Source: Anaerolineae bacterium
GTDB lineage: Bacteria; Chloroflexota; Anaerolineae; Aggregatilineales; J027
Direction of reading: 5' to 3'
Length of the DNA: 50,138 bases
Assembly: GCA_021463865.1 (NCBI GenBank)
Contig: JAJTXY010000030.1
Coordinates: forward strand, 1-50,138
In this document: positions 15,066 through 49,269 of the stretch, piece by piece
Numbering within the stretch: position 1 is the first letter of the stretch
Layout of the letters: each line of letters starts with the position of its first letter
The notes under the pieces: model-generated
Seen by the model: the letters and a program-made list of their open reading frames with translations, nothing else
Told to the model about the DNA's origin: nothing
Database searches by the model: none
Position numbers and translations under genes: made by a program

Positions 15066-16100
15066 ATGGGTACTGATTTTGACAACGGTATCACCGATTT
15101 AAACCTAGAGGACATTGCACGCCTCAGCGGTGTTTCCCGTTCAACCGTTTCAAGGGTGGTCAATCACCATCCCAATGTCAGTGAAATCACTCGCCGCAAG
15201 GTGTTGGAAATTATTGAACGCTATAATTTCAAACCCCATCCCGCCGCACGCGCCCTAGCCTCCCAACGTGCCAACATCATTGGAATTCTCATTCCTCACA
15301 TTGTCAGCGACCTGTTTACAGACCCATTTTTTTCCATTCTGTTGCAAGGCATTACTACTGCCGCCAATTCTGTGAATTATAGCCCTATCCTATGGCTGAC
15401 GAGTGCCAACGTAGATGAGAGTGCTTTTTACGATCAGGTGTTCAATGACCGTCTTGCGGATGGCATGATTGTTGCATCCGCCACCGTAAATGCCTCATTC
15501 ATCAAACGTCTTGATCAAAGGGGCAAGCCCTACATCATCATAGGCCGGCCTTTTACCGCTTATGAACAAAGCAGTTATGTGGATTCGGAGAATGAGCAGG
15601 GTGCTCGTATGATGGTCGAGCATCTTATCAAACAGGGTCGGCGGCGTATCGGGATGATTACAGGTCGGTCAGGGCTGACATCGAGCCATGATCGTTTGCA
15701 AGGGTATATCAGCGCCCTGCAACATGCCGATATTCCTATAGATATGCGCCTCATTACCCCGGCTGGTGATTATTCGGATGCGAGTGGTTATACAGGTATG
15801 AAACTGCTGCTGCATCATCGGATAGATGCGGTGTTTGCCGCCAATGATGTCATGGCCGCCAGTGCAATGCGGGCCATTAAAGAAGCGGGCCTGCGTATTC
15901 CAGAAGATATTGCCATCGGTGGTTTTGATGATATGGGGATTTCCCGTACTACTGAACCCCAGTTAACTACTGTTCAACAGCCAATTACCCAACTAGGAGA
16001 TTATGCGGTGCGCGGCTTGATTGATCTGCTAGAAGGCAGAGTTGAGCCGCCCTATCAGCAAATGCTCCCGGTGAAATTGATCGTCCGTCAATCGACCTAA
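15066..16100 (+). CDS. LacI-family regulator, CelR/CebR-like, of the cellulose locus
   Basis: A 344-residue repressor. The N-terminal helix-turn-helix (about 13-60) reads LNLEDIARLSGVSRSTVSRV with the hinge helix region PHPAARALASQ. The periplasmic-binding-like effector domain (about 70-340) shows typical GMITGRSG, AVFAANDVMAASAMRA and GGFDDMG motifs. Palindromes at 14995 and 16113 flank the gene, one in its own promoter and one in front of the sugar-binding protein gene, so it should control both. The inducer is probably cellobiose or a cello-oligosaccharide, judged from the operator and the neighbouring GH8, GH1 and GH94 genes. No clear Shine-Dalgarno precedes the ATG. Confidence 0.92.
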   Translation: MGTDFDNGITDLNLEDIARLSGVSRSTVSRVVNHHPNVSEITRRKVLEIIERYNFKPHPAARALASQRANIIGILIPHIVSDLFTDPFFSILLQGITTAANSVNYSPILWLTSANVDESAFYDQVFNDRLADGMIVASATVNASFIKRLDQRGKPYIIIGRPFTAYEQSSYVDSENEQGARMMVEHLIKQGRRRIGMITGRSGLTSSHDRLQGYISALQHADIPIDMRLITPAGDYSDASGYTGMKLLLHHRIDAVFAANDVMAASAMRAIKEAGLRIPEDIAIGGFDDMGISRTTEPQLTTVQQPITQLGDYAVRGLIDLLEGRVEPPYQQMLPVKLIVRQST

Positions 16101-16112
16101 TTTTGTTAGGCG

Positions 16113-16134
16113 ATGTTGGGAGCGCTCCCAACAT
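16113..16134. promoter_or_regulatory. CelR/CebR-type operator, copy 2, before the sugar uptake operon
   Basis: The core TGGGAGCGCTCCCA (16117-16130) is identical to copy 1 and is extended by four further paired bases on each side (16113-16134), a 22-bp perfect palindrome. It lies 13 bases after the LacI stop and 108 bases before the binding-protein start. No clear -35/-10 pair was recognised upstream. Confidence 0.85.
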
Positions 16135-16241
16135 TTAGGAGAATTTTTAAAGGAGGGTATTCCGCAGAATCACAAATGAAACCTAATCAGTTCGTATTTG
16201 GCCTTAAAAATTTCGCTAGAGCCTATAAGGAGCTAAATGTC

Positions 16242-17645
16242 ATGTCCAAGTTTTTGAAGAGGGGCCTCCCCGTATTAGTAATTGTTGCCCTGCTGGTTGT
16301 GGCGTTGCTGCCCAGTAACAATGCCAAGCCTGCCAAAGCCCAAGACCCGGTGACCATCCGGATTTTTGTCGGCGTTGGTACTGGCTATCTGCCCGAACAA
16401 CAGGCTGCTCAGGTTGCGTTGGCTGATGAATGGAATGCCGCGCACGAAGACATCAAGATCGAATTCGAATTCCATGACAACGAAACCGCCCGTGACGAAC
16501 TGCTGACGCAGGTTTCCGGTGGTGATGTTCCTGCTATCGTGGGGCCAGCCGGTGTCCGTACCGTGTTTGAAGTTAGCGACCTGTGGGCCGACATTACTTC
16601 CTATATTGAACGCGATGGCGACCAACTGAATCTGGATGACTTCGACGCCACCAGTTTTGGTCTGTATCAACTGGGTGATCGCCAAATTGCTATTCCGTTG
16701 GGTGTCTATCCATCTTTCATCTATGTAAACGAAACACTGTTTGCTGATGCCGAAGTCGAACTGCCCCCCACCGAATACGGTGCTTGGACATATGAAGACC
16801 TACGCGCCACCGCGATGGCCGTTACTCAAGACGCCAATGGTGTCTACAATGGTGAAGAGGGCTTTGATCCAGCCGCTATCGAAGTTTACGGCTACTATCC
16901 GTTCTGGACCAACTTCCGCGCCAGCACCATCGGCTTCAGCCCAGATGATGCCGGTGTCCTAATTGGCGAAGATGGAACCGTCACCGCTACGTTCAATCAA
17001 GATGCTTTCCGTCAGGCCGTCAAGTTCTTCCATGACGGTATTTTTGTTGACCACTTCATCCCCAATGCCGACGCTGAAGGCGCGATTGGCGAAGGCGTGA
17101 CCAACCCCTTCACCTCCAACCGTATTGCGATGGGCCGTAGCCACACATGGCTGTTCGGCGGTATCAAGTCCGCTATGGATGATGGCAATTTCACCGCCGA
17201 CTGGAACGTCTATCCTGTACCAGCGGCTCCCAATGGCAAGATTACAGCGGCTGTTCATGCTGACACCTTCGCCATTATGGACGGGTTTGAAAACAAAGAC
17301 GCGGCTTGGGAAGTTCTGAAGTGGCTTACCGCCCCTGAACAGGCCTTGGCGCTGTGCCAAGTTTACGGTTGTATGCCCGCTCGTTTGTCTGTCCGCAGCG
17401 AATGGGAATCCTACTGGCTAGAAGCCTTCCCCTTCCTGAATCTCGACGTGGTTTATGGTGCGTTGGAATATCTCGATGCCCCCAATCACGAAGGTTTCAT
17501 GCCCAATTACGCTCGCGCTTGGGACGCCCTCGAAGCCTTCTGGCAGGTCGTTCGTTCCGATCCAGCGGTAGATACGGATGCTGGTTTAGACGCGCTTAAC
17601 GCTGAAGTTCAAGGCATCTTCGACGAAGCTGCCGCTGCCGAATAA
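16242..17645 (+). CDS. Extracellular sugar-binding protein of CUT1 ABC transporter (cello-oligosaccharide, predicted)
   Basis: Captures sugar outside the cell and delivers it to the permease pair that follows. The 467 residues start with a classic signal peptide (basic MSKFLKR, hydrophobic core, cleavage probably after AKPAKA). No lipobox Cys is present, so it is not an evident lipoprotein. The mature part looks like solute-binding family 1 (MalE-like): EWNAAHEDIKIEFEF near the start and a Trp-rich C-terminal half. ATG 16242 is chosen since AAGGAG lies nine bases upstream and it gives a proper signal peptide; in-frame ATGs further upstream would spoil it. The CelR-type operator and the GH8/GH1/GH94 genes point to cellobiose or longer oligomers. 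Confidence 0.9.
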   Translation: MSKFLKRGLPVLVIVALLVVALLPSNNAKPAKAQDPVTIRIFVGVGTGYLPEQQAAQVALADEWNAAHEDIKIEFEFHDNETARDELLTQVSGGDVPAIVGPAGVRTVFEVSDLWADITSYIERDGDQLNLDDFDATSFGLYQLGDRQIAIPLGVYPSFIYVNETLFADAEVELPPTEYGAWTYEDLRATAMAVTQDANGVYNGEEGFDPAAIEVYGYYPFWTNFRASTIGFSPDDAGVLIGEDGTVTATFNQDAFRQAVKFFHDGIFVDHFIPNADAEGAIGEGVTNPFTSNRIAMGRSHTWLFGGIKSAMDDGNFTADWNVYPVPAAPNGKITAAVHADTFAIMDGFENKDAAWEVLKWLTAPEQALALCQVYGCMPARLSVRSEWESYWLEAFPFLNLDVVYGALEYLDAPNHEGFMPNYARAWDALEAFWQVVRSDPAVDTDAGLDALNAEVQGIFDEAAAAE

Positions 17646-17742: not shown

Positions 17743-18804
17743 ATGGCAACAGTGCAATCTGCCCCTACCACTCAAGTACAAGCACCCGCTGTAGAAGAAA
17801 AACGTATCAAACTTACACCGCGCCGTGCGCAGATTCTTTGGGGATATTTTTTCTTAATTCCGTGGATTCTTGGCTTTTTCCTGTTCCTGCTTGGGCCAAT
17901 GATCGCCTCGCTCTATCTCTCGATGACCGACTACAACATCCAACGACCCGGCGAGACCGATTTTATTGGCACCGAAAATTATGAAAAAATATTCTCGCTG
18001 CAAGTTATTCGTGACAGCGGGGATGAAGTAAATTTCAAACCGGGCTATACCGAGGCTTTTAGGATTGCCTCATTCCACTTTGGATCGCGGGATCATGAAG
18101 TTTGGAAGGCTATCCAAGTAACGCTCACCTTTGCGATTATCTCGCTGCCCGTCAATCTGGGCCTCGCGCTGTTTTTTGCCTTGCTGACCAACACCAAAGT
18201 GCCGGGAGTCAGGCTGTTCCGCACCATTTACTACCTGCCGAGTGTTATTCCGGCGGTTGTATCGGCCACCGTGTTTCAGCAATTTTTGCGCGGACAGGAT
18301 GGCTGGTTAAATGTCTATCTCTTAAGTCCATTGGGCTTAGGAAGTCCAGAGTGGTTGCAGGAACCAAGCCTCGCCGTGCCCGCCCTGACCATTATTGGGA
18401 CATGGGGGATTGGCACGACCATGCTGATGTTCCTTGCCGGGTTGCAAAATGTGCCGACTGAGTTATACGAGGCCGCTGAGGTAGACGGGGCCAATTATTG
18501 GTCGCGTTTCCGCAACGTAACCCTACCGATGATTTCGCCTGTTATTCTCTATAATCTGGTGATTGGCTTAATCGGCACCTTCCAATATTTCGTGGTAGCC
18601 TATGTCTTGACCCCGCGTGGGGCAGGCGGCAACGATCTTTCGATGTATTTTTATAATCTTCATCTCTATCGAGAAGCCTACGTGTTTTTTGATATGGGCT
18701 ATGCCTCCGCATTGGCTTGGATCCTATTTATTGTAGTGCTGATCGTCACGATCTTGGTCTTCCGTAGCTCAAGCCGCTGGGTCTTCTATGCGGGAGGTAA
18801 ATAA
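17743..18804 (+). CDS. CUT1 ABC transporter permease, MalF-like
   Basis: One half of the membrane channel for sugar import. The 353 residues hold six predicted helices, starting with ILWGYFFLIPWILGFFLFLL and typical SLYLSMTDYNI. The EAA loop that docks the ATPase is YEAAEVDGANYWSRF. Between the first two core helices there is about 30 extra residues (about 80-115) compared with the usual layout. The ATG at 17743 is preferred over an in-frame TTG at 17716 because AAAGGA lies seven bases upstream. The partner permease starts three bases after its stop. No ATP-binding subunit is in the locus, so a shared MsiK-type ATPase elsewhere is implied. Confidence 0.92.
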   Translation: MATVQSAPTTQVQAPAVEEKRIKLTPRRAQILWGYFFLIPWILGFFLFLLGPMIASLYLSMTDYNIQRPGETDFIGTENYEKIFSLQVIRDSGDEVNFKPGYTEAFRIASFHFGSRDHEVWKAIQVTLTFAIISLPVNLGLALFFALLTNTKVPGVRLFRTIYYLPSVIPAVVSATVFQQFLRGQDGWLNVYLLSPLGLGSPEWLQEPSLAVPALTIIGTWGIGTTMLMFLAGLQNVPTELYEAAEVDGANYWSRFRNVTLPMISPVILYNLVIGLIGTFQYFVVAYVLTPRGAGGNDLSMYFYNLHLYREAYVFFDMGYASALAWILFIVVLIVTILVFRSSSRWVFYAGGK

Positions 18805-18807
18805 GTA

Positions 18808-20292
18808 ATGGAACGTCTACGCGGATTTATAAGCAACGATAACATCAACCAGCGCGGTTATATGAAGCGCGAGGTCTATAAGGTCATCGGCATGGGTACG
18901 CTGCTGATGATTATGATTGGGGTAGCAACGATCTATCTCAGTCCGCTCGTCTATATGGGCAGCACCGCCCTCAAAACTGAAGGGCAGTTGTCTGATCCTG
19001 ATGACCCCATTGTTCCGATGTCTCCCCAGACCTATCATTATGTGAGTCCTGAAGTTGAAACTTTCCGCTACACTTATCGCCATCCGCAGACGCTTGACTA
19101 TCAGGGTCAAACACTGATGGTCTATGAAGTCATTCAACAAGGCAGAATCAATAAATATGCCTTCCTTGAAGCCCGCGATAATGTGAGCGTGTTTATTGAC
19201 AGTGAGAATCCTGAAGCGCCCCCCATTGAATTGGAAATTGCCGTTGAAGACCTTGATCCGGCGCTTGTTAACGAGCGACTGGAAGTGAATCTCTATAACG
19301 TGAATTATGAAGATGTCCAAGGTAAATTTGGCTTAGTCGAAGAATTAGAGGGCAATCGAACCTTGTGGATGGATCCTGAAGAAATCAGTGAGCCACCCTT
19401 TGAACTACCCATTGCAGCCTCAGATGCTGAGATCGTTCGCTTCGAACAAGACCTCATTTTGTATGAGGTGCCGGTGGATGGTGATATCCGTGAATTGGCA
19501 CTACTGGAAACCGGACGGCGCGGTGCAAAGTTCATTGACCCCGAAAATCCGGATGCTGAACCACTCGAATTGGATGTGCGGGTACGCGGGTTGGACAAAG
19601 TGTGGGAACTTGACCCCCACCCCGAAAACTTTACTGACGCGATGGATTCCATCAACTACTTCAAGCTGTTTGGCAATACGTTGTTCATTGCTGTGGTCAG
19701 TGGGCTTGGGGCGATGGTTTCGGCAACATTGGTGGCCTATGGGTTTACCCGCTTCAACATCCCCTATGCCAATATTCTGTTTATCATTTTGCTTTCAACC
19801 ATTGTACTGCCACCCCAAGTCACGCAAATCCCAACCTATATCGTCTACAACAAATTCGGTTGGATTGGGACGTTCTTCCCGCTAATCGTGCCGCATTTCT
19901 TTAGCAATGCCTACAACGTCTTTTTGCTGCGCCAATATATGATGGGTATCCCGCTCGATATGGACGAAGCAGCCCGTGTGGACGGGGCGAACCCATTCCA
20001 AATTTTGTGGTACGTTATTGTTCCGGCGGCACGTCCAGCCCTCGTCGCGGTCTATCTGTTCCACTTCCTGTTTTCGTGGAACGACTTCCAACAACCTCTC
20101 ATTTACTTGGGGGGCGGTTCGGAAAATACCGTGTTGGCGGTTGGCTTGGCAAACTTCACCCGTATCTACTCCTCGCAGCAAAATCTGATGATGGCGGCGG
20201 GGATATTGACCATGCTCGTTCCATTGGCGGTCTTCTTCTTCGCGCAACGCATCTTCATGCAAGGTGTGGTCATTACGGGGGTCGAAAAATAA
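18808..20292 (+). CDS. CUT1 ABC transporter permease, MalG-like, with large triple-repeat extracytoplasmic insert
   Basis: Partner permease of the preceding gene. At 494 residues it is about 210 longer than a normal MalG-type protein. The first helix (about 27-50) and SLK-like TALKTEG are followed by an insert of roughly 215 residues (about 62-275), after which the normal core resumes at ENFTDAMDSINYFKLFGNTL. The EAA loop is MDEAARVDGANPFQ. The insert contains three related units (about 102-149, 160-202, 216-264), each with a YxV segment, a G-x-L/A-LxE segment, a FIDPENP-like segment and a PPxEL-like end. It should face the binding protein. GGAGG lies eight to nine bases before the start; GH8 starts at the last base of its stop codon. 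Confidence 0.92.
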   Translation: MERLRGFISNDNINQRGYMKREVYKVIGMGTLLMIMIGVATIYLSPLVYMGSTALKTEGQLSDPDDPIVPMSPQTYHYVSPEVETFRYTYRHPQTLDYQGQTLMVYEVIQQGRINKYAFLEARDNVSVFIDSENPEAPPIELEIAVEDLDPALVNERLEVNLYNVNYEDVQGKFGLVEELEGNRTLWMDPEEISEPPFELPIAASDAEIVRFEQDLILYEVPVDGDIRELALLETGRRGAKFIDPENPDAEPLELDVRVRGLDKVWELDPHPENFTDAMDSINYFKLFGNTLFIAVVSGLGAMVSATLVAYGFTRFNIPYANILFIILLSTIVLPPQVTQIPTYIVYNKFGWIGTFFPLIVPHFFSNAYNVFLLRQYMMGIPLDMDEAARVDGANPFQILWYVIVPAARPALVAVYLFHFLFSWNDFQQPLIYLGGGSENTVLAVGLANFTRIYSSQQNLMMAAGILTMLVPLAVFFFAQRIFMQGVVITGVEK

Positions 20293-22175
20293 TGAAACGT
20301 CTGGTTTCGGCTCTTTTACTTCTTGGATTAATGGTGGGTGGTGTCAGTTGGGCGCAGGATGGGGGTTCTCCCCTCGCGCCTGCTGAAATTCCCGGTGAGG
20401 CTCTCTATATCCCCTTCCCGGTCGCTATCACGTTGGATGGTGATCTATCAGATTGGGCAGGGGTGCCTGTTTCTGTGGTTGATCGCGGGCCAAGCCCTTC
20501 GGCAAACCCGGCTGAAAACGGGTCATTCACCGTAGCGGTGGCAGCGGACACTGACAATTTGTATATTTCCATGACCATGCCTGACCAGAATATCATCACA
20601 GGTCAGCATGGCAGTGAGTATTGGAATGAAGACTCATTGGAATTCTATCTTAATCTGTCTGGTGAACTCGCCACTCGTACCTACAGCGACACGATTTTTC
20701 AGGTCAACATCAACGCGGGCGACATTGGCAACACCGACCCGGCGGCAATTACCGTGACAGGGGTCAATGGTTCCAGAGCGCCTGTACAAGCCTTTGTATT
20801 TAAGACCGATGATGGGTGGGGGTTTGAAGCCCAAGTTGCCCTGAATGGCGTCGTTGCTCCGACACATGGTTTAGAAATTGGCTTTCAGGCCCATGCAAAC
20901 GGTGCAAGTTCGGCAGACCGCGATGTGAAACTAATCTGGTCAAATGCTGATAAAGGCGATAATTCTTGGCAGAATCCCAGTGTTTTTGGACGGGGCATCT
21001 TTTTCGAAGTGGGTCGCACCGATATTCCTGTACCCGCCCTACCAGAGGAACCCGTCGGTTTTGAAATGGACGATGCTGATTGGTCGGCATTGGTACGCGC
21101 CAGTTGGGAAGGCTACAAACAGAATTACATCTTCTGTGGCGAGAACTGTGGCAATAATATGGGCCTCGTTTTTGACCCCAACATGGGCTATCAATCTGTC
21201 AGTGAGGGTATCGGCTATGGAATGTTAATGGCCGTGCTCATGAACGACCCACTCACCTTCAATACGATCTATGACGCAGCCTATCAAATGATGCTCGATC
21301 CAGAGACGGGCTTATTGAATTGGCGCATAGATAACACGGGTACGATCACGGGTTTTGGTTCCGCGACTGACGCCGAGGAAGACATCGCACTTGCCTTGAT
21401 CTTCGCGGAAAAGCGGGTTGAGCGTTCGGAATGGACACAGCATCCCGAACGGGCCTATGGCGAATATGCCAACCACTGGATTGACGCCATTTATGAATAT
21501 GAAGTTGGCGATGGTCGTTATCTCACCCCCGGTGATGATTGGGCAGGTGAGGGCCAAGAAATCCTCAATCTCTCCTATTTCTCGCCCGCATGGTATCGCA
21601 TTTTTGACGATTTTCAGGGAACGACTCGCTGGCAGCCCGTTATTACCTACGGCTATCGCACACTCTATGTTACGGATGGTGCGCGATTGGGCCTAGCCCC
21701 TGATTGGTCAACTTCGGAAGGTGGCCCGGCCTATGATTATTGCAATGCGACAGGCCGTCCCCTCGATACATGTAAATATGAGATGACTTACGATGCCATC
21801 CGGGTGCCGTGGCGCATTGGTTTGGACTGCATCTGGTTTGGCGATTCGCGGGCGTGTGATTGGTCAAAACGCAGCGCACGATTTCTAAATACCCTACCCC
21901 CGGATCAGTTCGCCCGAATGTATGACATGAACGGCGTCTCCGTCGTGGATTATCAAAACGAGTTGATGGTCGCTATGTGGCTGGTGGCTGCTCATGCTGC
22001 CGAAGATACCGCCCTTGAAAATCGGTTGGGTGAATTGCTGTATGGTTATGCAGGCAGCGTACTAGGATCCGGTTATTGGAGCGGTACATCTCAATTCTAT
22101 TTCGGTCAAAGTTTGGCTTGGTTCGGGGCAGCGGTTGTATCGGATGACTTCCGCAATCTGTATGCCGAACCCTGA
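20292..22175 (+). CDS. Secreted endo-beta-1,4-glucanase, CBM9-like domain plus GH8
   Basis: Predicted cellulase cutting internal beta-1,4 bonds outside the cell. The 627 residues begin with a signal peptide (MKRLVSALLLLGLMVGGVSW, cleavage about 21). A CBM9-like carbohydrate-binding domain spans about 35-245, opening with the typical ITLDGDLSDWAG. The GH8 (alpha/alpha)6 domain spans about 258-622. SEGIGYGM carries catalytic acid Glu305, ATDAEEDIALAL carries the conserved Asp360, and YDAIRVPWR carries the probable base Asp501. The ATG overlaps the permease stop by one base (TAATG), so translation is coupled; a longer in-frame reading from 20007 would lack a signal peptide. Substrate could also be other beta-1,4 glucans. 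Confidence 0.92.
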   Translation: MKRLVSALLLLGLMVGGVSWAQDGGSPLAPAEIPGEALYIPFPVAITLDGDLSDWAGVPVSVVDRGPSPSANPAENGSFTVAVAADTDNLYISMTMPDQNIITGQHGSEYWNEDSLEFYLNLSGELATRTYSDTIFQVNINAGDIGNTDPAAITVTGVNGSRAPVQAFVFKTDDGWGFEAQVALNGVVAPTHGLEIGFQAHANGASSADRDVKLIWSNADKGDNSWQNPSVFGRGIFFEVGRTDIPVPALPEEPVGFEMDDADWSALVRASWEGYKQNYIFCGENCGNNMGLVFDPNMGYQSVSEGIGYGMLMAVLMNDPLTFNTIYDAAYQMMLDPETGLLNWRIDNTGTITGFGSATDAEEDIALALIFAEKRVERSEWTQHPERAYGEYANHWIDAIYEYEVGDGRYLTPGDDWAGEGQEILNLSYFSPAWYRIFDDFQGTTRWQPVITYGYRTLYVTDGARLGLAPDWSTSEGGPAYDYCNATGRPLDTCKYEMTYDAIRVPWRIGLDCIWFGDSRACDWSKRSARFLNTLPPDQFARMYDMNGVSVVDYQNELMVAMWLVAAHAAEDTALENRLGELLYGYAGSVLGSGYWSGTSQFYFGQSLAWFGAAVVSDDFRNLYAEP

Positions 22176-22206
22176 TTTTTAGATGATTACACCTACAGGA
22201 GCCATG

Positions 22207-23538
22207 ATGGCATTTCCAAAGAATTTCCTGTGGGGTGCTGCGACAGCGAGTTACCAGATTGAAGGAGCCGCTCGCCTCGATGGTCGGGGCGAGTGTATCT
22301 GGACTCGTTTTTCGCACACTCCCGGCAAAGTTATGAACGGTGACACAGGGGATGTTGCCACCGATCACTATCATCGTTATGTTGAAGATGTCGCGTTGAT
22401 GAAGGAACTGGGGCTACAGGCCTATCGCTTCTCGGTTTCGTGGCCGCGTGTCATCCCCAACGGGACAGGCGCAACCAACCGCGCCGGACTGGATTTTTAT
22501 GATCGGCTGGTGGATGAGCTTCTAAGCGCGGGGATTATTCCAGCCGTGACCCTTTATCATTGGGATTTACCCCAAGCCCTGCAAAATCGAGGGGGTTGGC
22601 TCAATCGGGAAATTGTGGGGTGGTTCTCCGATTATACCGATCTAATGACCCGCCGTTTGGGAGATCGCGTCAAAAATTGGATCACAATTAACGAGCCATT
22701 TGTAGCCGCGTTTGTTGGGTATGGGTTTGGCGCTCATGCCCCCGGCTATACAGATCCGCGTGCGGGACTGCTGGCCGCCCACCACATGTTGTTGGCGCAT
22801 GGGGCTGCAATGCGGGTTATTCGCCCAAATGTAGCGAATTCTGTCGCTGGTATTACGCTTAATCTCAGTTGGGTTGATTCAGCGACCTCTAGTGAGGCAG
22901 ATATTCAAGCGGCCCGTCGGCATGACGGCTTTGTGAACCGCTGGTTTATAGACCCCGTTTTTAAGGGTGAATATCCCGCCGATATGCTCCAACTTTATGG
23001 CAGCGCGTTGGACGACATTGATGTAACCGAGATCAAGCAGGCGGCTGTGCCCCAAGATTTCCTCGGCATCAACTACTATACCCGCAACGTGATTAAAGAT
23101 GATCCGAACGGGCATTATCTAAAAACCCACGAGATTAAGCCGCAAGGTGCTGGCTACACTCAAATGGGTTGGGAGCTTTCTCCGGGGAGTCTAACCCAAC
23201 TGTTGGTGCGGTTGCATCAAGAGTATGCACCGAAAGCCTTGTGGATAACCGAAAATGGCGCAGCCTACCCCGACCCCGACCCGGTAAATGGCATGGTTGC
23301 TGACCCCGAACGCACCGATTACCTTAAAACCCATGTTGCCGCCGTTGAAGCTGCCATCCAACAAGATTCGCCCGTCACAGCCTATTTTGTGTGGAGCCTG
23401 CTCGACAATTTTGAATGGGCCTATGGTTATGATCGGCGTTTCGGCATCATCCATGTAGATTTCAACACCTTAAAACGCACGATGAAACAAAGCGCTTTAT
23501 GGTATCGAGATTTTATAGCAAAAGTCACAGCAGGTTAG
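22207..23538 (+). CDS. Beta-glucosidase, GH1
   Basis: Retaining cytoplasmic glycosidase that hydrolyses cellobiose and short cello-oligosaccharides to glucose. The 443 residues match usual GH1 length. FLWGAATASYQIEGA is the N-terminal signature, acid/base Glu163 lies in TINEPF and nucleophile Glu349 in WITENG. There is no signal peptide. ATG 22207 is preferred because AGGAG lies five bases upstream; the ATG at 22204 leaves too little room. It follows the GH8 gene by 31 bases and precedes GH94 by nine, so all three are one operon. Specificity for other beta-glycosides cannot be excluded. Confidence 0.95.
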   Translation: MAFPKNFLWGAATASYQIEGAARLDGRGECIWTRFSHTPGKVMNGDTGDVATDHYHRYVEDVALMKELGLQAYRFSVSWPRVIPNGTGATNRAGLDFYDRLVDELLSAGIIPAVTLYHWDLPQALQNRGGWLNREIVGWFSDYTDLMTRRLGDRVKNWITINEPFVAAFVGYGFGAHAPGYTDPRAGLLAAHHMLLAHGAAMRVIRPNVANSVAGITLNLSWVDSATSSEADIQAARRHDGFVNRWFIDPVFKGEYPADMLQLYGSALDDIDVTEIKQAAVPQDFLGINYYTRNVIKDDPNGHYLKTHEIKPQGAGYTQMGWELSPGSLTQLLVRLHQEYAPKALWITENGAAYPDPDPVNGMVADPERTDYLKTHVAAVEAAIQQDSPVTAYFVWSLLDNFEWAYGYDRRFGIIHVDFNTLKRTMKQSALWYRDFIAKVTAG

Positions 23539-23547
23539 GGGGACAGG

Positions 23548-25980
23548 ATGCGCTACGGTTATTTTGATGATGACGCCTGTGAATATGTCATTACTCGACC
23601 TGATACCCCCCTGCCATGGATTAATTATCTAGGGAACGAAGCCTATTTTGGCATTATCTCGAATACAGCGGGTGGTTATTCGTTTTATCGAGATGCCCGA
23701 CTGCGGCGTTTGACCCGCTATCGGTATAATAATGTGCCGTTTGATACGGGTGGACGTTATCTCTATGTGCGGGATAACACCTCCGGGGAATATTGGTCAC
23801 CTTCGTGGCAACCAACACGCACTCCACTCGACGAATACGCCTGTTATCATGGATTAGGTTATACGCGAATCGCCTCAAAGAATTATGGAATTGAGGCTTC
23901 CACCCGCTATTTCGTGCCATTGGGTGAAAACCTCGAAATCTGGCAGTTGACTCTGACCAATCATCGCAGCACCCCGGCAGATCTATCGGTATTTTCGTCG
24001 GTAGAATTCTGTCTGTGGGATGCCAACGACGACATGACCAACTTCCAGCGCAATTTTAATATTGGTGAGGTCGAGGTCGAAGGTAGCACGATTTATCATA
24101 AGACTGAGTATCGGGAGCGGCGCAATCATTTTGCCTATTTCGCCTGTTCCGAGTCATTGGCGGGTTTTGATACATGGCGTGACACCTTTTTGGGGGCCTA
24201 TCGCAATTGGGATACTCCTCTGGCTGTCGAACGCGGCGAGTCGTTTAATTCCATCGCGCATGGATGGGCACCGTTGGGGTCACATCATATCAAAGTGAGC
24301 CTCGCACCCTATGAAACGCACCAGATTATTTTTGTCTTGGGTTATCATGAGAATCCAAAAGATCAGAAATTTGATGAGCAAGGGTTGATTAATAAAAGCA
24401 CTGTTCGCCCTATCATCCAAAAATATCTCAATCCGGTGCAGGTCGAACGCTCATTTACCGATTTACAGCTTTATTGGGAGAAAACAGCGGGAGTGTTGCA
24501 AGTCAACACCCCCGATATTCATACCAACCGCATGGTCAACGTATGGAATGCCTATCAATGTATGGTGACGTTTAATATGTCACGCTCGGCTTCCTTCTAT
24601 GAATCAGGGATTGGCCGAGGCATGGGTTTCCGCGATTCCAATCAAGACCTGTTAGGTTTTGTTCATATGGTGCCTGCCCGTGCGCGGGAACGCATTCTTG
24701 ATATTGCTGCTACGCAACTACCTACTGGGGGCGCTTATCATCAATATCAACCCCTCACCAAACGTGGTAACGATGCCGTTGGGGGCAACTTCAATGATGA
24801 CCCGCTCTGGTTGGTGCTGGGGGTTGCGGCCTATATCAAAGAGACAGGCGATTGGGCTATCTTGGATGAATCTGTGCCGTATGATAACCGCCCCGGCAGC
24901 GAAACTCCACTTTATGAACACCTAGAACGCAGCATCCAATATACGTTAGATCGGCTTGGCCCACATGAGTTGCCACTGATTGGGCGTGCGGATTGGAATG
25001 ACTGCTTAAATCTCAATACCTTCTCCGAAGAACCCGGTGAATCCTTCCAAACAACCACCAATAAAGATGGCAAGGTTGCCGAATCTATCTTTATCGCAGG
25101 GTTGTTTATTCTTGCTGCCCAAGAAATGATCGAAATGGCCCAGCAGCGGGGTGTGGATGTTCAGTGTTATCAAGATGCCGCCGCCAAGATGGAAACCACC
25201 ATTTATGAACATGGCTGGGACGGCAATTGGTTTTTGCGAGCCTATGATAACTTCGGTGACAAAGTTGGTTCGACTGAATGTGCTGAGGGACAGATTTTTA
25301 TCGAACCGCAGGGTATATGCGTCATGGCGGGTGTCGGCCTGCAAAATGGGTTTGCGCGTAAAGCCCTCGATTCTGTGGGAGCACATCTGGCGACCCCACA
25401 TGGCATCGTGTTACAGCAGCCACCCTATTCGCGCTACTATGTCCATTTGGGCGAGATTTCGTCCTATCCCCCCGGCTACAAAGAAAACGCGGGGATTTTC
25501 TGCCATACCAATCCTTGGATCATGATTGCCGAGGCGGTGGCTGGCAATGGCAACCGTGCGTTTGATTACTACGCACGTCTCAATCCATCGGCCCGCGAAG
25601 AAATCAGCGAAGTACATCGCTGTGAGCCGTATGTCTATGCTCAGATGATCGCGGGTAAAGATGCTCCGACGCATGGAGAAGCGAAAAATTCGTGGCTTTC
25701 TGGGACAGCGGCGTGGAATTATGTCGCTATCACCCAATGGATTTTGGGTATCCGGCCCACTTTTGCCGGACTCCAAGTTGCCCCTGTCATCCCCGATGAT
25801 TGGCAGGGCTTTAGTGCCACCCGGCAGTATCGTGGGGTAAGCTACCATATTGAAGTAGTGCGCGTTGGGCCGGGTAATCAATTGCAGCTTTCCGTTGAAG
25901 GCCATCCGTTAGAGGGAACGGTTGTCCCCTTCAATTTAGATCGCCCCGAGGTTCATGTCAAGGTGAGTATCGGTGCGTAA
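23548..25980 (+). CDS. Cellobiose phosphorylase, GH94
   Basis: Splits cellobiose with inorganic phosphate into alpha-glucose 1-phosphate and glucose in the cytoplasm, saving ATP compared with hydrolysis. The 810 residues fit family length. Recognisable parts are the opening MRYGYFDDDACEYVITRPDT, the substrate loop GMGFRDSNQDLLGFVHM (358-374) and the catalytic motif RADWNDCLN (acid Asp482 or Asp485), plus GNFNDDPLW. It is the last gene of the cellulose operon, nine bases after GH1 with GGGGACAGG just before the start. A terminator follows at 26016. Some GH94 members use cellodextrins or N,N'-diacetylchitobiose, but the context favours cellobiose. Confidence 0.95.
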   Translation: MRYGYFDDDACEYVITRPDTPLPWINYLGNEAYFGIISNTAGGYSFYRDARLRRLTRYRYNNVPFDTGGRYLYVRDNTSGEYWSPSWQPTRTPLDEYACYHGLGYTRIASKNYGIEASTRYFVPLGENLEIWQLTLTNHRSTPADLSVFSSVEFCLWDANDDMTNFQRNFNIGEVEVEGSTIYHKTEYRERRNHFAYFACSESLAGFDTWRDTFLGAYRNWDTPLAVERGESFNSIAHGWAPLGSHHIKVSLAPYETHQIIFVLGYHENPKDQKFDEQGLINKSTVRPIIQKYLNPVQVERSFTDLQLYWEKTAGVLQVNTPDIHTNRMVNVWNAYQCMVTFNMSRSASFYESGIGRGMGFRDSNQDLLGFVHMVPARARERILDIAATQLPTGGAYHQYQPLTKRGNDAVGGNFNDDPLWLVLGVAAYIKETGDWAILDESVPYDNRPGSETPLYEHLERSIQYTLDRLGPHELPLIGRADWNDCLNLNTFSEEPGESFQTTTNKDGKVAESIFIAGLFILAAQEMIEMAQQRGVDVQCYQDAAAKMETTIYEHGWDGNWFLRAYDNFGDKVGSTECAEGQIFIEPQGICVMAGVGLQNGFARKALDSVGAHLATPHGIVLQQPPYSRYYVHLGEISSYPPGYKENAGIFCHTNPWIMIAEAVAGNGNRAFDYYARLNPSAREEISEVHRCEPYVYAQMIAGKDAPTHGEAKNSWLSGTAAWNYVAITQWILGIRPTFAGLQVAPVIPDDWQGFSATRQYRGVSYHIEVVRVGPGNQLQLSVEGHPLEGTVVPFNLDRPEVHVKVSIGA

Positions 25981-43569: not shown

Positions 43570-44592
43570 ATGCCAACTTTAGCTGAAGTTGCTGAAAAAG
43601 CAGGCGTTTCGATAGCCACTGTCTCAAAAGTGCTATCCAATACTCCCTATTTCACTGAGGAAACTCGCCGCAAAGTGATGTCAGCGGTTGAGGAATTAGG
43701 GTATTTGCCGAATTTGGCGGCTCGTGCGCTGTCCTCTGGCAAAACCCATCTCATCGGAGTGGTCTTTCCCTACGTCTATGAAGGCATCTTCACCGATCCC
43801 CTTGTGCAATATATCTTGGAAGGCATTGAAGCAGAATGTAACGCGCGTGGTTACAACATCCTTCTCAGCACACCTCGCCTCAGCGCTGATGGCCCAGACG
43901 AAAATTATCGCCGGTTGCTTCAAAGCAGTTATTTAGATGGCATCGTTGCCTTAGATAACGTGCCGCTCAGTTCCGTTCTATCGCCCGCCTTGCGGAAAAA
44001 CACCCCTGCTGTCGCTATTGGCTATGGTGATCATCCCAATTACGTTCGCAGTGATGACCTTCAAGGCAGCACGGCTTTAATGGAACATATCACTGGTTTG
44101 GGACATCGGCGCATTGGGATATTGACTGTTGATGAGTCCTTGCACTATTCCATTCAAATGCGCCATTTAGGGCTGGATCAAGTGGCAGAGGAGGCCGGGT
44201 TAAATTATGTCCATCTGCCCAAATATGATCGAGGTGATTTTTCAATCGCCAGTGGGATGCGGGGGGCAGCAGCACTTTTGGAACAATACGACGACCTGAC
44301 CGCACTGGTCTGTATCAATGACCGTATGGCGTTGGGCGCAATTCAGCAAGTCCAAAAAATGGGTCTCAAAGTGCCCGATGACATCACCATTGTGGGTTAT
44401 GACGACATCCTCTCATCTCAACTATTTTCCCCGGCGCTCACCACGATTGACCAGCGTGCCCCGGAGCTAGGACATCAGGCAGCCCAAATGCTATTTGCGC
44501 TTCTCAATAATGAAAATCCCGACTCGGTGGTTATTCCGACCCAACTGCGTGTCCGAGAATCATCGGCCCCACCGAAAGTATCTCGCCAGTAA
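43570..44592 (+). CDS. LacI-family regulator of the beta-galactoside locus
   Basis: A 340-residue repressor. The helix-turn-helix is at the N-terminus (TLAEVAEKAGVSIATVSKVL, 3-22) with LPNLAARALSSGKT as hinge. The effector domain (about 60-335) has HITGLGHRRIGILTVD, ALVCINDRMALGAIQ and IVGYDDILSS. It precedes a sugar-binding protein, two permeases and GH42, so its inducer is probably a beta-galactoside, though this is inferred only from context. The inverted repeat at 43521-43538 in its own promoter suggests autoregulation. Confidence 0.92.
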   Translation: MPTLAEVAEKAGVSIATVSKVLSNTPYFTEETRRKVMSAVEELGYLPNLAARALSSGKTHLIGVVFPYVYEGIFTDPLVQYILEGIEAECNARGYNILLSTPRLSADGPDENYRRLLQSSYLDGIVALDNVPLSSVLSPALRKNTPAVAIGYGDHPNYVRSDDLQGSTALMEHITGLGHRRIGILTVDESLHYSIQMRHLGLDQVAEEAGLNYVHLPKYDRGDFSIASGMRGAAALLEQYDDLTALVCINDRMALGAIQQVQKMGLKVPDDITIVGYDDILSSQLFSPALTTIDQRAPELGHQAAQMLFALLNNENPDSVVIPTQLRVRESSAPPKVSRQ

Positions 44593-44700
44593 AAATGCCA
44601 TTGGAAAGGAGAAGGTCTGAGCGATTGAAAAAAGCGGGAGTTGACTTTTATACCCTTGTTTTCTGTGAATCCGTTTCGAGTGATTTAGGAGGTCTCTAAA

Positions 44701-45966
44701 ATGTTTAAGCGTTTACTCGTATTGGTGATTCTGGCGGCGCTGCTGCTGCCCGTATTTGCGGTCAATGCACAGGATGAAATTACCCTGCGTTGGCGCACCC
44801 GCCCTGACAATCAGGCCGAAATTGATGTTTACCAAGCTGCCAGCGACGAAATTGATGCCGCGTGGGATGGCGTAACCCTGCAATATGAACCCGGTGGTTC
44901 CGAAACCGCCAGCTATCAGGACGTGCTGATTACTGAACTGACTGGTGGCACTGCCCCCGACGTGTTTTGGATTCCCGGCACCGATGTGGCCCGTTTTGCA
45001 AAGTTGGGCTTGATCCTGAACCTGAACGACCTTGCGGCCCAGTCCGAAGGTTTCAGCAAGGACGATTTCTATCCTCAGATTATGGAACACCTTAGCTACT
45101 CACTGGATGGCAGTGATACTCTGTGGGGATTACCCCGCGATGCCTCGGCCTTTGCCGTCTACTACAACGAAGACCTTTTTGACGAAGCAGGCCTAGATTA
45201 CCCGGCGGAAGGCTGGACATGGGAAGACTTCCGTGCCGCTGGTGAAGAAATCACGGCGCTGGGTGGTGACATCAAAGGCTTCGGTATGAGCAACTGGTGG
45301 GGGCCATATGGGTACTTCATCAATGCCGCTGGCTCCAGCTTCTTCAATGAAGACTATACGGGTTGTGGCCTAGCGAATGAAAATACGGTAACTGGTTTGG
45401 ATTTTATGGCGAGCCTCTATAACGACGGCTTGGCTGTTCCTTATGGTGAAGACCCCGAACCTGTCTTCCTCGCGGGCAATGTTGGCATGTTCATGAATGG
45501 TCGTTGGGCGACTCCCGGCGTGGTGGCAAATGCCACATTCGGTTGGAATGTCGCTGAACTACCTGTTGGCCCCGGCGGCCCCAGCAACTGGCTGTTCTGG
45601 GGCGCATATGTGGTCAACGCCAACACCGAACACCCGCAGGAAGCATGGGAATTGGTCATGAAACTGACTAGCCCTGAAATTCAAGGCAAGATCGCTGGTT
45701 TGGGTGCCAATATCCCCAGTCGCGTGGGTGGTTCAGGTGTGGATGACTTCCTCGCCACCTTCGCTGATTTGGAACTGAACAACCAAGCTTTTGTCAATGG
45801 TTTGGGTTATGGTGTCGCTGAAAATCCCGTTTGGGCAGGAGACTGGTCCAGCATCGGCACTGCGCTTGACAGTGGTGTTGCTGCTGTGGTTGCTGGCGAT
45901 CTATCCGCTCAGGAATTCGCCGACACCATCTGTGCTCAGGTTGATCCATTCTTTGCTACTGAATAA
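44701..45966 (+). CDS. Extracellular sugar-binding protein of the second CUT1 transporter
   Basis: Solute-binding protein of family 1, 421 residues. The signal peptide is MFKRLLVLVILAALLLPVFA with cleavage near VNA; no lipobox Cys is present. The mature part has the usual LIGTELTGGTAPDVFWI-like segment (ITELTGGTAPDVFWIPG) and Trp-rich ligand-cleft segments such as WGPYGYF. AGGAGG lies eight bases before the start. It is separated from the permeases by a strong terminator-like hairpin at 45979. The neighbouring GH42 gene suggests galacto- or lacto-type oligosaccharides as ligand. Confidence 0.92.
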   Translation: MFKRLLVLVILAALLLPVFAVNAQDEITLRWRTRPDNQAEIDVYQAASDEIDAAWDGVTLQYEPGGSETASYQDVLITELTGGTAPDVFWIPGTDVARFAKLGLILNLNDLAAQSEGFSKDDFYPQIMEHLSYSLDGSDTLWGLPRDASAFAVYYNEDLFDEAGLDYPAEGWTWEDFRAAGEEITALGGDIKGFGMSNWWGPYGYFINAAGSSFFNEDYTGCGLANENTVTGLDFMASLYNDGLAVPYGEDPEPVFLAGNVGMFMNGRWATPGVVANATFGWNVAELPVGPGGPSNWLFWGAYVVNANTEHPQEAWELVMKLTSPEIQGKIAGLGANIPSRVGGSGVDDFLATFADLELNNQAFVNGLGYGVAENPVWAGDWSSIGTALDSGVAAVVAGDLSAQEFADTICAQVDPFFATE

Positions 45967-45978
45967 AACAATCTTCAT

Positions 45979-46007
45979 GGGGGGGATGGGTAATCCTCCC
46001 CTTTTTT
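45979..46007 (+). terminator. Intra-operon terminator/attenuator after the second binding protein
   Basis: GGGGGGGAT (45979-45987) pairs with ATCCTCCCC (45993-46001), one G-T wobble, followed by TTTTTT (46002-46007). It should reduce transcription into the permeases, giving more binding protein than channel. Confidence 0.75.
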
Positions 46008-46050
46008 CCCCGATAATTATTTGAGCTACGACAAGGGGGATGGAAATTAC

Positions 46051-47730
46051 ATGACTACTTTGGCACAAACCGGGAGCATTAGCCCAATGAAAGAGCGAAA
46101 AAATCTTCCATTGGCAATCCCCGCCAGTATTGTTTTGAATATTGCAACTATTATTATCAGTGTTTTGCTGGCATTGAGCATTTTTGATTTAGACGAGTTT
46201 TATGCCTTAGGCGATACCGTTCAATATTTTGTGGGGGGTATTGCGCTTGTTCCTGCGATTGCCGCCGCTGCTGCGGTTATCCTGCTGATTATGAAAAATC
46301 CAAATGGACGTTTTTTGTCTCTCGCCCTGCATTTCTTGGGAATGATTGCCGCGTCCATTTATTTGCTGCACATCTGGGGTGTCTTTACGGGCTTTGATGC
46401 CATTGCAGGTGCCCTGTATGAAAATTCTGCGTGGTTGTGGGGCCTCGTCATTGCGTATGCCCTCTATTGGTTTGCAGGTCGTCTGGATAATAGTAAACCT
46501 CTTAGCAGTCGTATCGAGATGATAGCGGTTGGAATCGGCATGTTGGCGCTGATCGGCCTCCTCTTCTTTGGTGGCATTTTGGAAGCGACAGCCGACATCT
46601 TGGGCAAGTACGACCAACTAGAGACATGGGTGGTTACTGCCCTCATGGTCATCTTTGGGATTGTGGCCTATGGCATACTGACACTAGGAGAATATTTTGG
46701 CGAGACCACCGACCAGCGCACCGCATGGCAGGGGTGGTTGATGCTGTCCCCCAATATCATCGGTTTTACGATTTTTTTCGCAGGGCCGCTACTGCTGTCA
46801 CTCTACCTCAGCTTTACGGATAGTGTCGGCGTCAAGGAGCCGAATTTCATTGGGCTGGATAATTACAGCCAAGCCCTTTCGCTTCAATTTAAAACGCAGG
46901 GCGAAGACGACCAATATGCTCAGGATGCGCTGGATGCAGGCTACCGCGTCTTGGAAACCGTCACAGTCGGTGATAAAACAACAGTTATCGGGGCGAAAGA
47001 TGTCTATTTTTGGATTAGCCTCCGCAATACTTTTATGTTTTGTTTGATGCTGATTCCCCTAGCGACTATCCCTGCGCTGCTGTTGGCAGTGGTGCTCAAT
47101 TCCAAGATACCCGGCATGAAGATTTACCGCGCAGCATTCTTTTTGCCGTCTGTCGCGGCGGTGGTCGGGATTGCTCTGATTTGGCGTATCGCTCTGTATA
47201 GCTCTAGCATCGGCTTTATCAACTACGCCCTGACTGAATTTACGAGATTCTTGAACGCTACTTTTGGCACATCTTTTGCCGATACGGAAATCGGCTGGCT
47301 CAGTGATACGCGCTATATGATGTTCTCAATGGTACTGATGGCGGCGTGGCAGGTGGTGGGGTTCAACATGGTGCTGTTTTTGGCAGGCATTCAAGGGATT
47401 CCGAACGACCTGTATGAAGCGGCCCAAGTGGACGGCGCGAATCAGTTGAATCAATTCCGCTTTATTACACTCCCGCAGCTTCGCCCAACCACCTTTTTTG
47501 TGATTGTGACGACCATCATCAATGGGTTGCAGGTCTTTAATGAACCCTTTGTGCTGTTTCGTGGTGCGGCCTTCCCGGATGAAGTACGCACCGCCGTGTT
47601 GAATCTCTACCTTAGGGGTTTCCAAGATATTCTATTCGGCTATTCTTCGGCGTTGGCATGGATGTTGTTTGCCATCATTTTTGTGGTCACGCTTATCCAA
47701 TTCCGCCTCAACCGCGATAAGACAGCCTAA
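46051..47730 (+). CDS. CUT1 ABC permease, MalF-like, with six-helix N-terminal extension
   Basis: A 559-residue permease. Its last 330 residues are a normal CUT1 core starting at GWLMLSPNIIGFTIFF, with EAA loop YEAAQVDGANQLNQF. Between core helices 1 and 2 about 50 extra residues occur (around 273-318). The first 215 residues are an additional membrane domain with about six hydrophobic helices (22-45, 56-80, 88-110, 125-142, 155-178, 192-212), ending just before the core. I do not recognise this domain; it is not the short MalF N-terminal extension. ATG 46051 is preferred over an in-frame TTG at 46021 because AAGGGGG lies about ten bases before it. The partner permease starts 12 bases after its stop. 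Confidence 0.9.
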   Translation: MTTLAQTGSISPMKERKNLPLAIPASIVLNIATIIISVLLALSIFDLDEFYALGDTVQYFVGGIALVPAIAAAAAVILLIMKNPNGRFLSLALHFLGMIAASIYLLHIWGVFTGFDAIAGALYENSAWLWGLVIAYALYWFAGRLDNSKPLSSRIEMIAVGIGMLALIGLLFFGGILEATADILGKYDQLETWVVTALMVIFGIVAYGILTLGEYFGETTDQRTAWQGWLMLSPNIIGFTIFFAGPLLLSLYLSFTDSVGVKEPNFIGLDNYSQALSLQFKTQGEDDQYAQDALDAGYRVLETVTVGDKTTVIGAKDVYFWISLRNTFMFCLMLIPLATIPALLLAVVLNSKIPGMKIYRAAFFLPSVAAVVGIALIWRIALYSSSIGFINYALTEFTRFLNATFGTSFADTEIGWLSDTRYMMFSMVLMAAWQVVGFNMVLFLAGIQGIPNDLYEAAQVDGANQLNQFRFITLPQLRPTTFFVIVTTIINGLQVFNEPFVLFRGAAFPDEVRTAVLNLYLRGFQDILFGYSSALAWMLFAIIFVVTLIQFRLNRDKTA

Positions 47731-47742
47731 GGAGACCAGACC

Positions 47743-49269
47743 ATGCAAAAGGAACCGAACCACGAACTCAAAGTTTGGGCGTCACGCGGTTGCATCCACC
47801 TGTTTCTGCTAACTTTCGGCTTTATCATGTTGTTTCCCTTTATTTACATGATTTTGGCCTCGTTAAAAAACAATCAGGATTTTGCGAGTAATCCTCGCCG
47901 CCTGCTGCCTTTTACCCAACTCGACACGGATTTTCAGGATACCCAAGTCCCGCTATATTCCTTCGACGTTAATGGCAGCAAGCTGGATGCTGTGATTGCA
48001 AGTGGTGATGATGATAAGGTTGAGTTCGGGTATTTGACGACTCGCGCGTTACTTGAAGCTGAACTTAAGAATGATACCCACGCCAATGCCCGCCGCCGAC
48101 CCGAAATCTACTTAGCACTCCCAATGGGTTGGATGGGCAGTAACGGCACAGAAATTGAACTTGACAAGGCTACTGGAACGGAGATTATCTTAAGCCGAAC
48201 CGATACCAAAATTGAATTGACGGATCGCAATAACCAGACGAACGAATTTACGGGCTACAGCGTCACCATTGATGGGCAGACGCCCACTACTCTTTTGACC
48301 CTTTACGACATTACGGTTCCCCTGTTTGCCTACAGTGGTAATCGGCTAAAAGGGGATGAATGGGTGCTGGTCAACACCGGACGCGAAGAGACTCTCTTAG
48401 ATAAGGAGGGTAATGATCGGGGGTATCTGGTTTTTGAACTGCACAGTGGGGCATCTGTTCAAGAATTGCTGATGGCTTCCAATTCAACGGTGACAGCCTT
48501 CGTTGACCCCGAAAATATTGACTTTGTGGTGTATACCACCCCCGTCGAAACGGTCAAAGCGGCGGAGAAAATTGAGTTCCAACTCGAAAACTATAACACC
48601 GTATTGGGACGTGGGGAAGACCAGAGCCTCAAATTAGACCGCCCTCTCGTCAACACCATTCTCGTGACAATCTCGGTGGTGTTGGGGCAAATTGTTACTT
48701 CGGTTTTTGGGGGTTATGCCTTTTCACGGATTGATTTTAGAGGGCGTGACACGCTGTTTCTGGCCTATCTTGGTTCAATCATGATTCCCTTTGTTGTCTT
48801 GATCGTGCCGATGTACAAGCTCATGGTGGCGATAGAGTGGAATGATCGTATTGTTTCCTTGATTGTGCCTTGGATATTTTCAGCTTATGGCACATTCCTA
48901 ATGCGTCAGTTCTTTGTAACCTTTCCCAAAGAAATCGAAGAGGCCGCCTTGCTGGATGGATGCAGCCGCTTGCGAATCCTGTGGCGCATCTTTGTCCCCC
49001 TCAGCACTCCGGTCATTGCTACACAAGCCATTTTCACGTTCCTCTATGCGTGGAACAGTTTCATCTGGCCGCTGGTGATTATCAGTACCAATAATAAAGA
49101 CAATCACGTGCTAACCCTATCACTGATTACCTTGAGCAACATCCATGCCGATAAACCCAACTTGGTACTGACTGGGGCCGCCGTGATGATCTTGCCGCCG
49201 ATTTTGGTGTTTATCCTTGCCCAGAAATATTTTGTGGAAGGGATCACTTCCTCTGGCTTGAAAGGATAA
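47743..49269 (+). CDS. CUT1 ABC permease, MalG-like, with large extracytoplasmic insert
   Basis: Partner of the preceding permease. At 508 residues it carries about 220 extra residues between helix 1 (about 17-40) and the next helix (about 302). The core resumes at FQLENYNTVLG and has the EAA loop IEEAALLDGCSRLRI. The insert has three recurring pieces: VPLYSFDVNGSKLDAV near 69, VPLFAYSGNRLKGDEW near 192 and SVQELLMASNSTVTAFVDPE near 238. The last two recall the repeats in the first locus (18808-20292). The insert would face the binding protein. No ATPase gene follows. Confidence 0.9.
   Translation: MQKEPNHELKVWASRGCIHLFLLTFGFIMLFPFIYMILASLKNNQDFASNPRRLLPFTQLDTDFQDTQVPLYSFDVNGSKLDAVIASGDDDKVEFGYLTTRALLEAELKNDTHANARRRPEIYLALPMGWMGSNGTEIELDKATGTEIILSRTDTKIELTDRNNQTNEFTGYSVTIDGQTPTTLLTLYDITVPLFAYSGNRLKGDEWVLVNTGREETLLDKEGNDRGYLVFELHSGASVQELLMASNSTVTAFVDPENIDFVVYTTPVETVKAAEKIEFQLENYNTVLGRGEDQSLKLDRPLVNTILVTISVVLGQIVTSVFGGYAFSRIDFRGRDTLFLAYLGSIMIPFVVLIVPMYKLMVAIEWNDRIVSLIVPWIFSAYGTFLMRQFFVTFPKEIEEAALLDGCSRLRILWRIFVPLSTPVIATQAIFTFLYAWNSFIWPLVIISTNNKDNHVLTLSLITLSNIHADKPNLVLTGAAVMILPPILVFILAQKYFVEGITSSGLKG

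Follow-up and report, generated by a model that had tools for sequence, protein, structure and literature searches.

Why does a MalG-type sugar permease carry about 215 extra residues between its first two transmembrane helices, and what could they do there? Type I sugar importers are usually taken as a fixed compact core with small MalG loops. The permease in question is encoded in a contig of an Anaerolineae bacterium (JAJTXY010000030.1), and the window refers here to the whole stretch of that contig which was analysed (50,138 nucleotides).

The permease and its insert

The malG gene is an ORF with an ATG start (18808..20292, plus strand) that encodes a protein of 494 amino acids, in which TM1 and the permease core were recognised. 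The core comprises about residues 283-494 (19654..20289, plus strand) according to Pfam and PDB matches and the translation, in which the EAA-loop motif DEAARVDGA could be read. The gene also follows the SBP-MalF-MalG order expected of a MalG-type CUT1 permease (SBP, solute-binding protein). As the sole Pfam match, BPD_transp_1, spans residues 309-486 (54 bits against the Pfam cut-off of 26.4), the insert precedes the permease core.

The loop between TM1 and TM2 (P1 loop) has approximately 236 residues, including the approximately 215 extra ones, and the core begins after the insert, in agreement with the first-pass annotation. That annotation had also put ordinary MalG loops at about 40 residues. 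In the window genome 18 of the 23 MalG proteins found are without the unit described below, and their P1 loops have 26-68 residues, with 32-40 in 14 of the 18. The insert is acidic, with 16 Lys and Arg compared to 49 Asp and Glu in residues 57-275. Searches of Pfam, NCBIfam and PDB with the window MalG gave no match covering it: the NCBIfam matches started at residue 265 or beyond, and the 13 matching PDB sequences all aligned inside residues 277-493. Thus, an annotated domain with an assigned function, which the first-pass annotation had named among the findings that would refute its reading, was not encountered with Pfam, NCBIfam or binding-module profiles.

Repeat relationship of the three units

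The insert has an N-terminal lead (residues 72-94; 19021..19089, plus strand), which in a weak full-length model forms an extra strand ahead of unit 1. Unit 1 (residues 95-153; 19090..19266, plus strand) is backed by HMM match and pairwise alignment, the divergent unit 2 (residues 155-211; 19270..19440, plus strand) by pairwise scores, and unit 3 (residues 212-272; 19441..19623, plus strand), which is nearest to the single unit of other MalG proteins, by HMM match and an AlphaFold2 model.

Smith-Waterman alignments were compared with 5000 shuffles. Unit 1 against unit 3 scored 107, with a shuffle mean of 24.8 (sd 4.7) and none of the 5000 shuffles as high; the score was 55 (p 4e-4) for unit 1 against unit 2, and 34 (p 0.053) for unit 2 against unit 3. 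An HMM made from 35 single-unit MalG loops, with the window protein left out, matched unit 1 (i-E 2.5e-10) and unit 3 (i-E 1.8e-17). Unit 2 was matched neither by this HMM nor by hhalign against the family profiles, and is seen in pairwise tests only; we rejected it as an ordinary member of the family and kept it as a divergent unit. It did match one unit of the longer array of another locus, L205 (score 64 against a shuffle maximum of 55 in 500 shuffles). Judged from these scores, unit 1 is clearly homologous to unit 3. Since the pairwise scores link unit 2 both to unit 1 and to the L205 unit, while HMM and hhalign miss it, we read the insert as three units of which the middle one is strongly diverged. 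The proposal that the insert is built of three related units is therefore supported by shuffle tests and HMM, with unit 2 as the divergent one. No direct DNA repeat of at least 15 bases was found, and the duplication is therefore old.

Predicted fold of the unit

Unit 3 was modelled with AlphaFold2 from 15 rows (three units from each of five orthologues). The model has a pLDDT of 75 and a pTM of 0.60, with a pLDDT of 85-87 in four of its seven ten-residue blocks, and shows strands at 11-16, 19-29, 32-36 and 46-48 followed by a short turn helix. This beta meander fits the small beta domain suggested at first. The full-length prediction from six sequences failed (pLDDT 41.7, pTM 0.21); in the low-confidence full-length model the strand pattern of the insert nevertheless recurs three times (101-142, 162-201 and 218-255).

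A Foldseek search with the unit 3 model gave nothing significant (best E 0.61). In VIA-align, SH3-like barrels came out on top, from Z 5.5 downwards; the top classes are the myosin SH3-like domain, the retroviral integrase C-terminal domain, Tudor, chromo and SH3. Because Z values up to 5.5 are common by chance, the fold stays a proposal, and the unit is probably, according to its model, a small beta meander of about 55-75 residues that resembles SH3-like barrels. In a Pfam scan of 22 units at E <=1, the matches were confined to DUF3592, HMBD and LBR_tudor, none better than E 0.06, and no SH3, SH3b or CBM family was among them. PDB profile matches to the insert (eIF3A at E 0.02, others at 0.24 or worse) were taken as chance.

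Distribution of the unit

The survey covered Chloroflexota and plasmid-borne sequences of Alphaproteobacteria. Matches to the window loop were present in 14 of 151 genomes of the phylum, among them the window genome, and in 56 of 396 genomes of the class at E <=1e-8. Among the latter, a full 272-residue match to the query was found only in the window genome and three others of its genus, and none of the others extended beyond about 110 residues. With a profile built on single-unit loops, 46 of 400 genomes gave a match. With a unit-only profile in six frames, 30 of 41 genomes near that of the window matched at E <=0.1, 28 of these at E <=1e-3, and longer arrays appeared. A single-protein search of genome contigs returned only the four near orthologues. 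Hence, the profile search and phylum survey suggested earlier show that the unit recurs in many MalG proteins; the triple repeat, which had been presented as a one-off, is one state of an array of one to six or seven units.

Among plasmids, 169 records match a rhizobial single-unit loop, with organism names including Rhizobium, Sinorhizobium and Roseomonas. In plasmid tblastn, the window loop and a two-unit loop had matches solely in Rhizobium, Sinorhizobium and Neorhizobium, and a class A single-unit loop had none. Viral contigs scanned with two loop alignments yielded no relative.

The lengths of the collected MalG P1 loops cluster at about 35, about 98, 151-161 and 233-236 residues, the last being the window protein and its orthologues; 52, 67, 68 and 107-135 lie outside these clusters, as do two further long loops of 244 and 259. 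In this survey all rows without a unit are from the window genome. The loop of 259 residues belongs to a second MalG-type permease in the window (47743..49269, plus strand; 508 aa), which sits in the two-unit clade and in which only one unit was recognised. It is part of a second LacI-SBP-MalF-MalG cluster (43570-49269), whose MalF has 569 aa and an N-terminal extension with extra predicted helices. More generally, the MalF proteins of the two-unit MalG clade (window 46021-47727 and L120-L127) have 552-571 aa, about 200 more than most others, and in the three examined extra predicted helices lie ahead of the core. A different P1 insert, of 244 residues and with no unit found, occurs in L016, also of the window genome, where the partner MalF has about 785 aa; perhaps, as far as the sequence tells, this is another domain grafted at the same place.

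Counts from an iterated HMM were dropped: the loops scanned had also served for its training, and its envelopes had spread into flanking sequence. Its E-values were circular, and the counts were therefore redone with two non-iterated HMMs, which gave 0 matches per shuffled set on 13 long loops. Both of these miss window unit 2. One of them, which accordingly does not see that unit, counted in 128 non-redundant MalG loops one unit in 80, two in 21, three in 3, four and five in 1 each, and none in 22. The arrays of L194 and L195 (the L207 and L208 systems) have three units each by both HMMs, that of L206 has six by one and four by the other, and that of L008 none or one. L205 has three or five by the two HMMs; pairwise score adds a sixth (303-349), and inspection by eye a seventh. 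The MalG of L215 (L215:996-3884), with 963 aa and a P1 loop of 701 residues, has none or three weak units.

All 121 unit-bearing ORFs in 174 loci have a MalG core. This restriction is weaker than it looks, because the loci are partly redundant, with many copies, and were mostly found through unit-bearing loops. In the six-frame unit-only search, with matches worse than E 0.05 left out other than those checked, the two non-MalG matches that were checked (L222 and L223) are weak and were taken as chance. Among the loci examined the unit is, by its sequence matches, confined to the MalG P1 loop.

Relations among the arrays and selection on the insert

By hhalign, homology connects the units of the two large MalG groups (probability 97.8, E 1e-12). 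In a quick tree of 78 MalG cores, with no-unit rows from the window genome only, the triple-unit clade lies inside a 43-row clade (support 100) that is otherwise single-unit, and is separate from the two-unit clade. The same picture comes from a MalF tree of 37 rows (17-row clade, support 100/99). A tree of 102 MalG cores omits 10 listed near-copies and all but 5 no-unit rows, and the window row is represented by near-identical orthologues. There, L205 joins the window type (support 99), L206 joins L194 and L195 (support 85), and L215 falls in a third group with rhizobial proteins (support 99). Fourteen changes of unit-number label are needed on this quick tree, some of the labels being unsure. 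L107 is mislabelled as one unit, as its TM1 was called too late, and L100 was relabelled from two matches to one.

Such frequent shifts would be expected if growth of the array were mostly neutral, that is, if the loop tolerated tandem duplication and the units beyond the one proximal to TM2 were functionless. The strong divergence of unit 2 points the same way, and so does the weaker constraint on the insert, with dN/dS values of 0.09-0.15 in four orthologue pairs compared to core values of 0.02-0.05 in the three computable pairs. However, these values also show that the insert is under purifying selection, and even unit 2 gave 0.17-0.25 in four orthologue pairs. Moreover, the four named orthologues (L055-L058), from MAGs labelled Chloroflexi or Anaerolineae, share with the window MalG the length of 494 aa and the layout. 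We consider mostly neutral growth rather unlikely.

Operon and neighbouring genes

The gene order in the window is LacI-SBP-MalF-MalG-GH8(CBM9)-GH1-GH94, with all genes on the plus strand. A LacI-type regulator, recognised by Pfam (15066..16100), is followed by the SBP (16113..17645) and by the MalF-type partner permease (17743..18804), which has a 45-residue segment in its first core extracytoplasmic loop. The listed start of the SBP is probably too early (stretch 16113-16241); an in-frame ATG at 16242, which opens a signal-peptide-like stretch, is likelier. Downstream of malG lie genes for a CBM9 and GH8 protein (20292..22175), whose ATG begins on the final base of the malG stop codon, a GH1 protein (22183..23538) and a GH94 phosphorylase (23548..25980). 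The enzyme set GH8, GH1 and GH94 is one that we take, from knowledge of these families, to indicate cello-oligosaccharides, and the predicted sugar of the importer is probably fragments of cellulose. The orthologous loci L055-L058 all keep the operon genes of the window.

In L205, the SBP, MalF, GH8 and GH94 proteins span 60-71% identity with those of the window (SBP 71%, GH8 67%, GH94 71%), and no GH1 gene was found between GH8 and GH94 in the stretch examined. From these identities L205 apparently corresponds to the window operon, its array being longer, with 6-7 units instead of 3. The MalF of L205 (L205:1172-2875) has a first core extracytoplasmic loop of 256 residues. With two unit HMMs this loop outscored all of 2000 shuffles (13.3 and 8.0 bits), with no single domain above 5.9 bits and an E of 0.026 among all MalF proteins, which weakly suggests degenerate units in it. 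L206 stands further from the window: its MalG is 47% identical to that of the window over the last unit and the core, and GH1 62%, and a CBM9-GH3 protein replaces GH8. A GH8 gene assigned to L206 from a blast match was rejected, since according to Pfam it was the CBM9 part that matched and the protein is a GH3.

The units might instead shape the outer vestibule and share in sugar specificity, as the MalG P1 loop sits over the entrance, and the systems occur together with enzymes for plant polysaccharides. Against this, L205 has GH8 and GH94 like the window and yet 6-7 units compared to 3, although this is one operon pair only, and L206, with 6 units, has GH1 but CBM9-GH3 and not GH8. Similar cargo genes together with a different unit number, as in L205 and the window, fit reach or contact better than substrate choice, and a part in specificity appears quite improbable.

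The units could also bind polysaccharide or cell wall like SH3b or CBM modules, and so hold the importer by its substrate or by the secreted CBM9-GH8 enzyme. The SH3-like resemblance of the unit model and the CBM9-GH8 protein in the window operon are in line with this, as are the GH28 genes that adjoin, together with GH88 or GH105 genes, the single-unit MalG in two annotated rhizobial operons, and the two Trp residues conserved in 94% of 35 single units. Both of these Trp are, however, missing from the three window units, no binding-module profile matched, and units were not found in other proteins in the loci examined or the six-frame search. Binding of glycan or wall is therefore unlikely in our judgement.

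Binding protein and MalF partners

Of the 32 unit-bearing systems seen with wide flanks, 31 have an adjacent SBP gene; over the full set of 42 the number is 40. The SBPs of class A single-unit systems have a median length of 491.5 residues (n 14) compared to 437 for no-unit paralogues (n 8); the Mann-Whitney test (p 1e-4) included one added triple-unit row, and the rows are not independent. Class B single-unit SBPs (n 3, median 436) showed no difference from the no-unit ones, and those of two-unit systems differ from them by about 22 residues only. L142 (313 aa) and L133 and L151 (no SBP found) were left out of these groups. The length of the array does not track that of the SBP: L206 has 6 units and an SBP of 461 aa, and L207 has 3 units and one of 458 aa.

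In 37 MalF proteins the loop segment has 45-54 residues in 14 of 14 partners of multi-unit MalGs, five of which are one lineage, and 14-29 in 15 of 15 partners of single-unit ones; with no-unit MalGs, two of eight MalF segments have 49 and 89 residues. Among the new systems, with L221 of the window genus left out, the MalF loop is short (14-27 residues) in 7 of 12 with multi-unit MalGs, and coupling of the MalF and MalG loops was rejected as a general rule.

Proposed function of the array

The domain described by the data is real, can expand, apparently has no name yet and sits in a transporter of known kind. We suggest that the array, a tandem series of small beta domains that can grow in P1 of the MalG subunit of a CUT1 sugar importer, may be an extendable arm that docks the SBP; the first-pass annotation had likewise supposed that the unit may hold the binding protein or the substrate. 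The arm would stand above the membrane and contact the SBP, and the loaded SBP could be captured, turned into position or retained close to the translocation gate, much as by E. coli MalF P2 from the opposite half; with each added unit the arm would reach further or offer more surface for contact. We infer this role because the array sits in the MalG P1 loop, which is reported to contact MalE: going by its title, a study by Daus from 2007 reportedly found contacts of MalE with both MalF P2 and MalG P1. Presumably P2 is at the matching place, since we take MalF TM3-TM4 to be equivalent to MalG TM1-TM2.

Docking is favoured by the P1 position, the restriction of units to MalG, the purifying selection, the SBP gene beside 31 of 32 systems and the longer SBPs of class A single-unit systems; it is weighed down by a unit number unlinked to SBP length, by the MalF-loop link, which failed in new systems, by the 18 unit-free proteins among 23 MalGs of the window genome, and by the middling quality of the unit 3 model with its weak structural matches. 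On balance we give it slightly less than an even chance. A wider account is more doubtful and only tentatively put forward, namely that an SH3-like family confined to the MalG P1 loop forms an adjustable arm of 1 to 6 or 7 units which captures the SBP, has expanded separately in several clades of MalG and maybe entered the MalF of L205. A single loop that grows from no domain to 6 or 7 would offer a graded set of natural lengths with which to study SBP recruitment, and a domain unseen by Pfam and NCBIfam would gain a name.

Comparison with known systems

No description of the unit was seen in titles or abstract openings of the open-licence PMC literature, among the matches listed. SH3-like barrels (Tudor, retroviral integrase C-terminal domain, myosin SH3-like domain) have a strand arrangement similar to that predicted for unit 3, but with Z at most 5.5 and no sequence relation found, and the likeness implies no function. 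In solved CUT1 complexes (SugB 7cad/8ja7, MalG 2r6g) homology to the window MalG is in the core, within about residues 284-493, and no chain matched the insert.

A large insert at this position of MalG is already published for Thermotogales. MalG1 and MalG2 resemble the window MalG in having a large insert between TM helices 1 and 2, a hydrophilic region of about 500 aa which, in the parts of the report consulted, is described as without significant similarity to proteins known then and of unknown function, and for which those parts describe no repeat (Noll 2008, PMC2246101); the two inserts are likened by description only. In E. coli, P2 of MalF is a large extracytoplasmic domain that, as far as the consulted parts of the sources go, directly contacts MalE (PMC3150292, PMC2246101). 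P2 is one domain of 180 residues in MalF, whereas the window MalG carries a tandem array, and the two are likened by position and role only.
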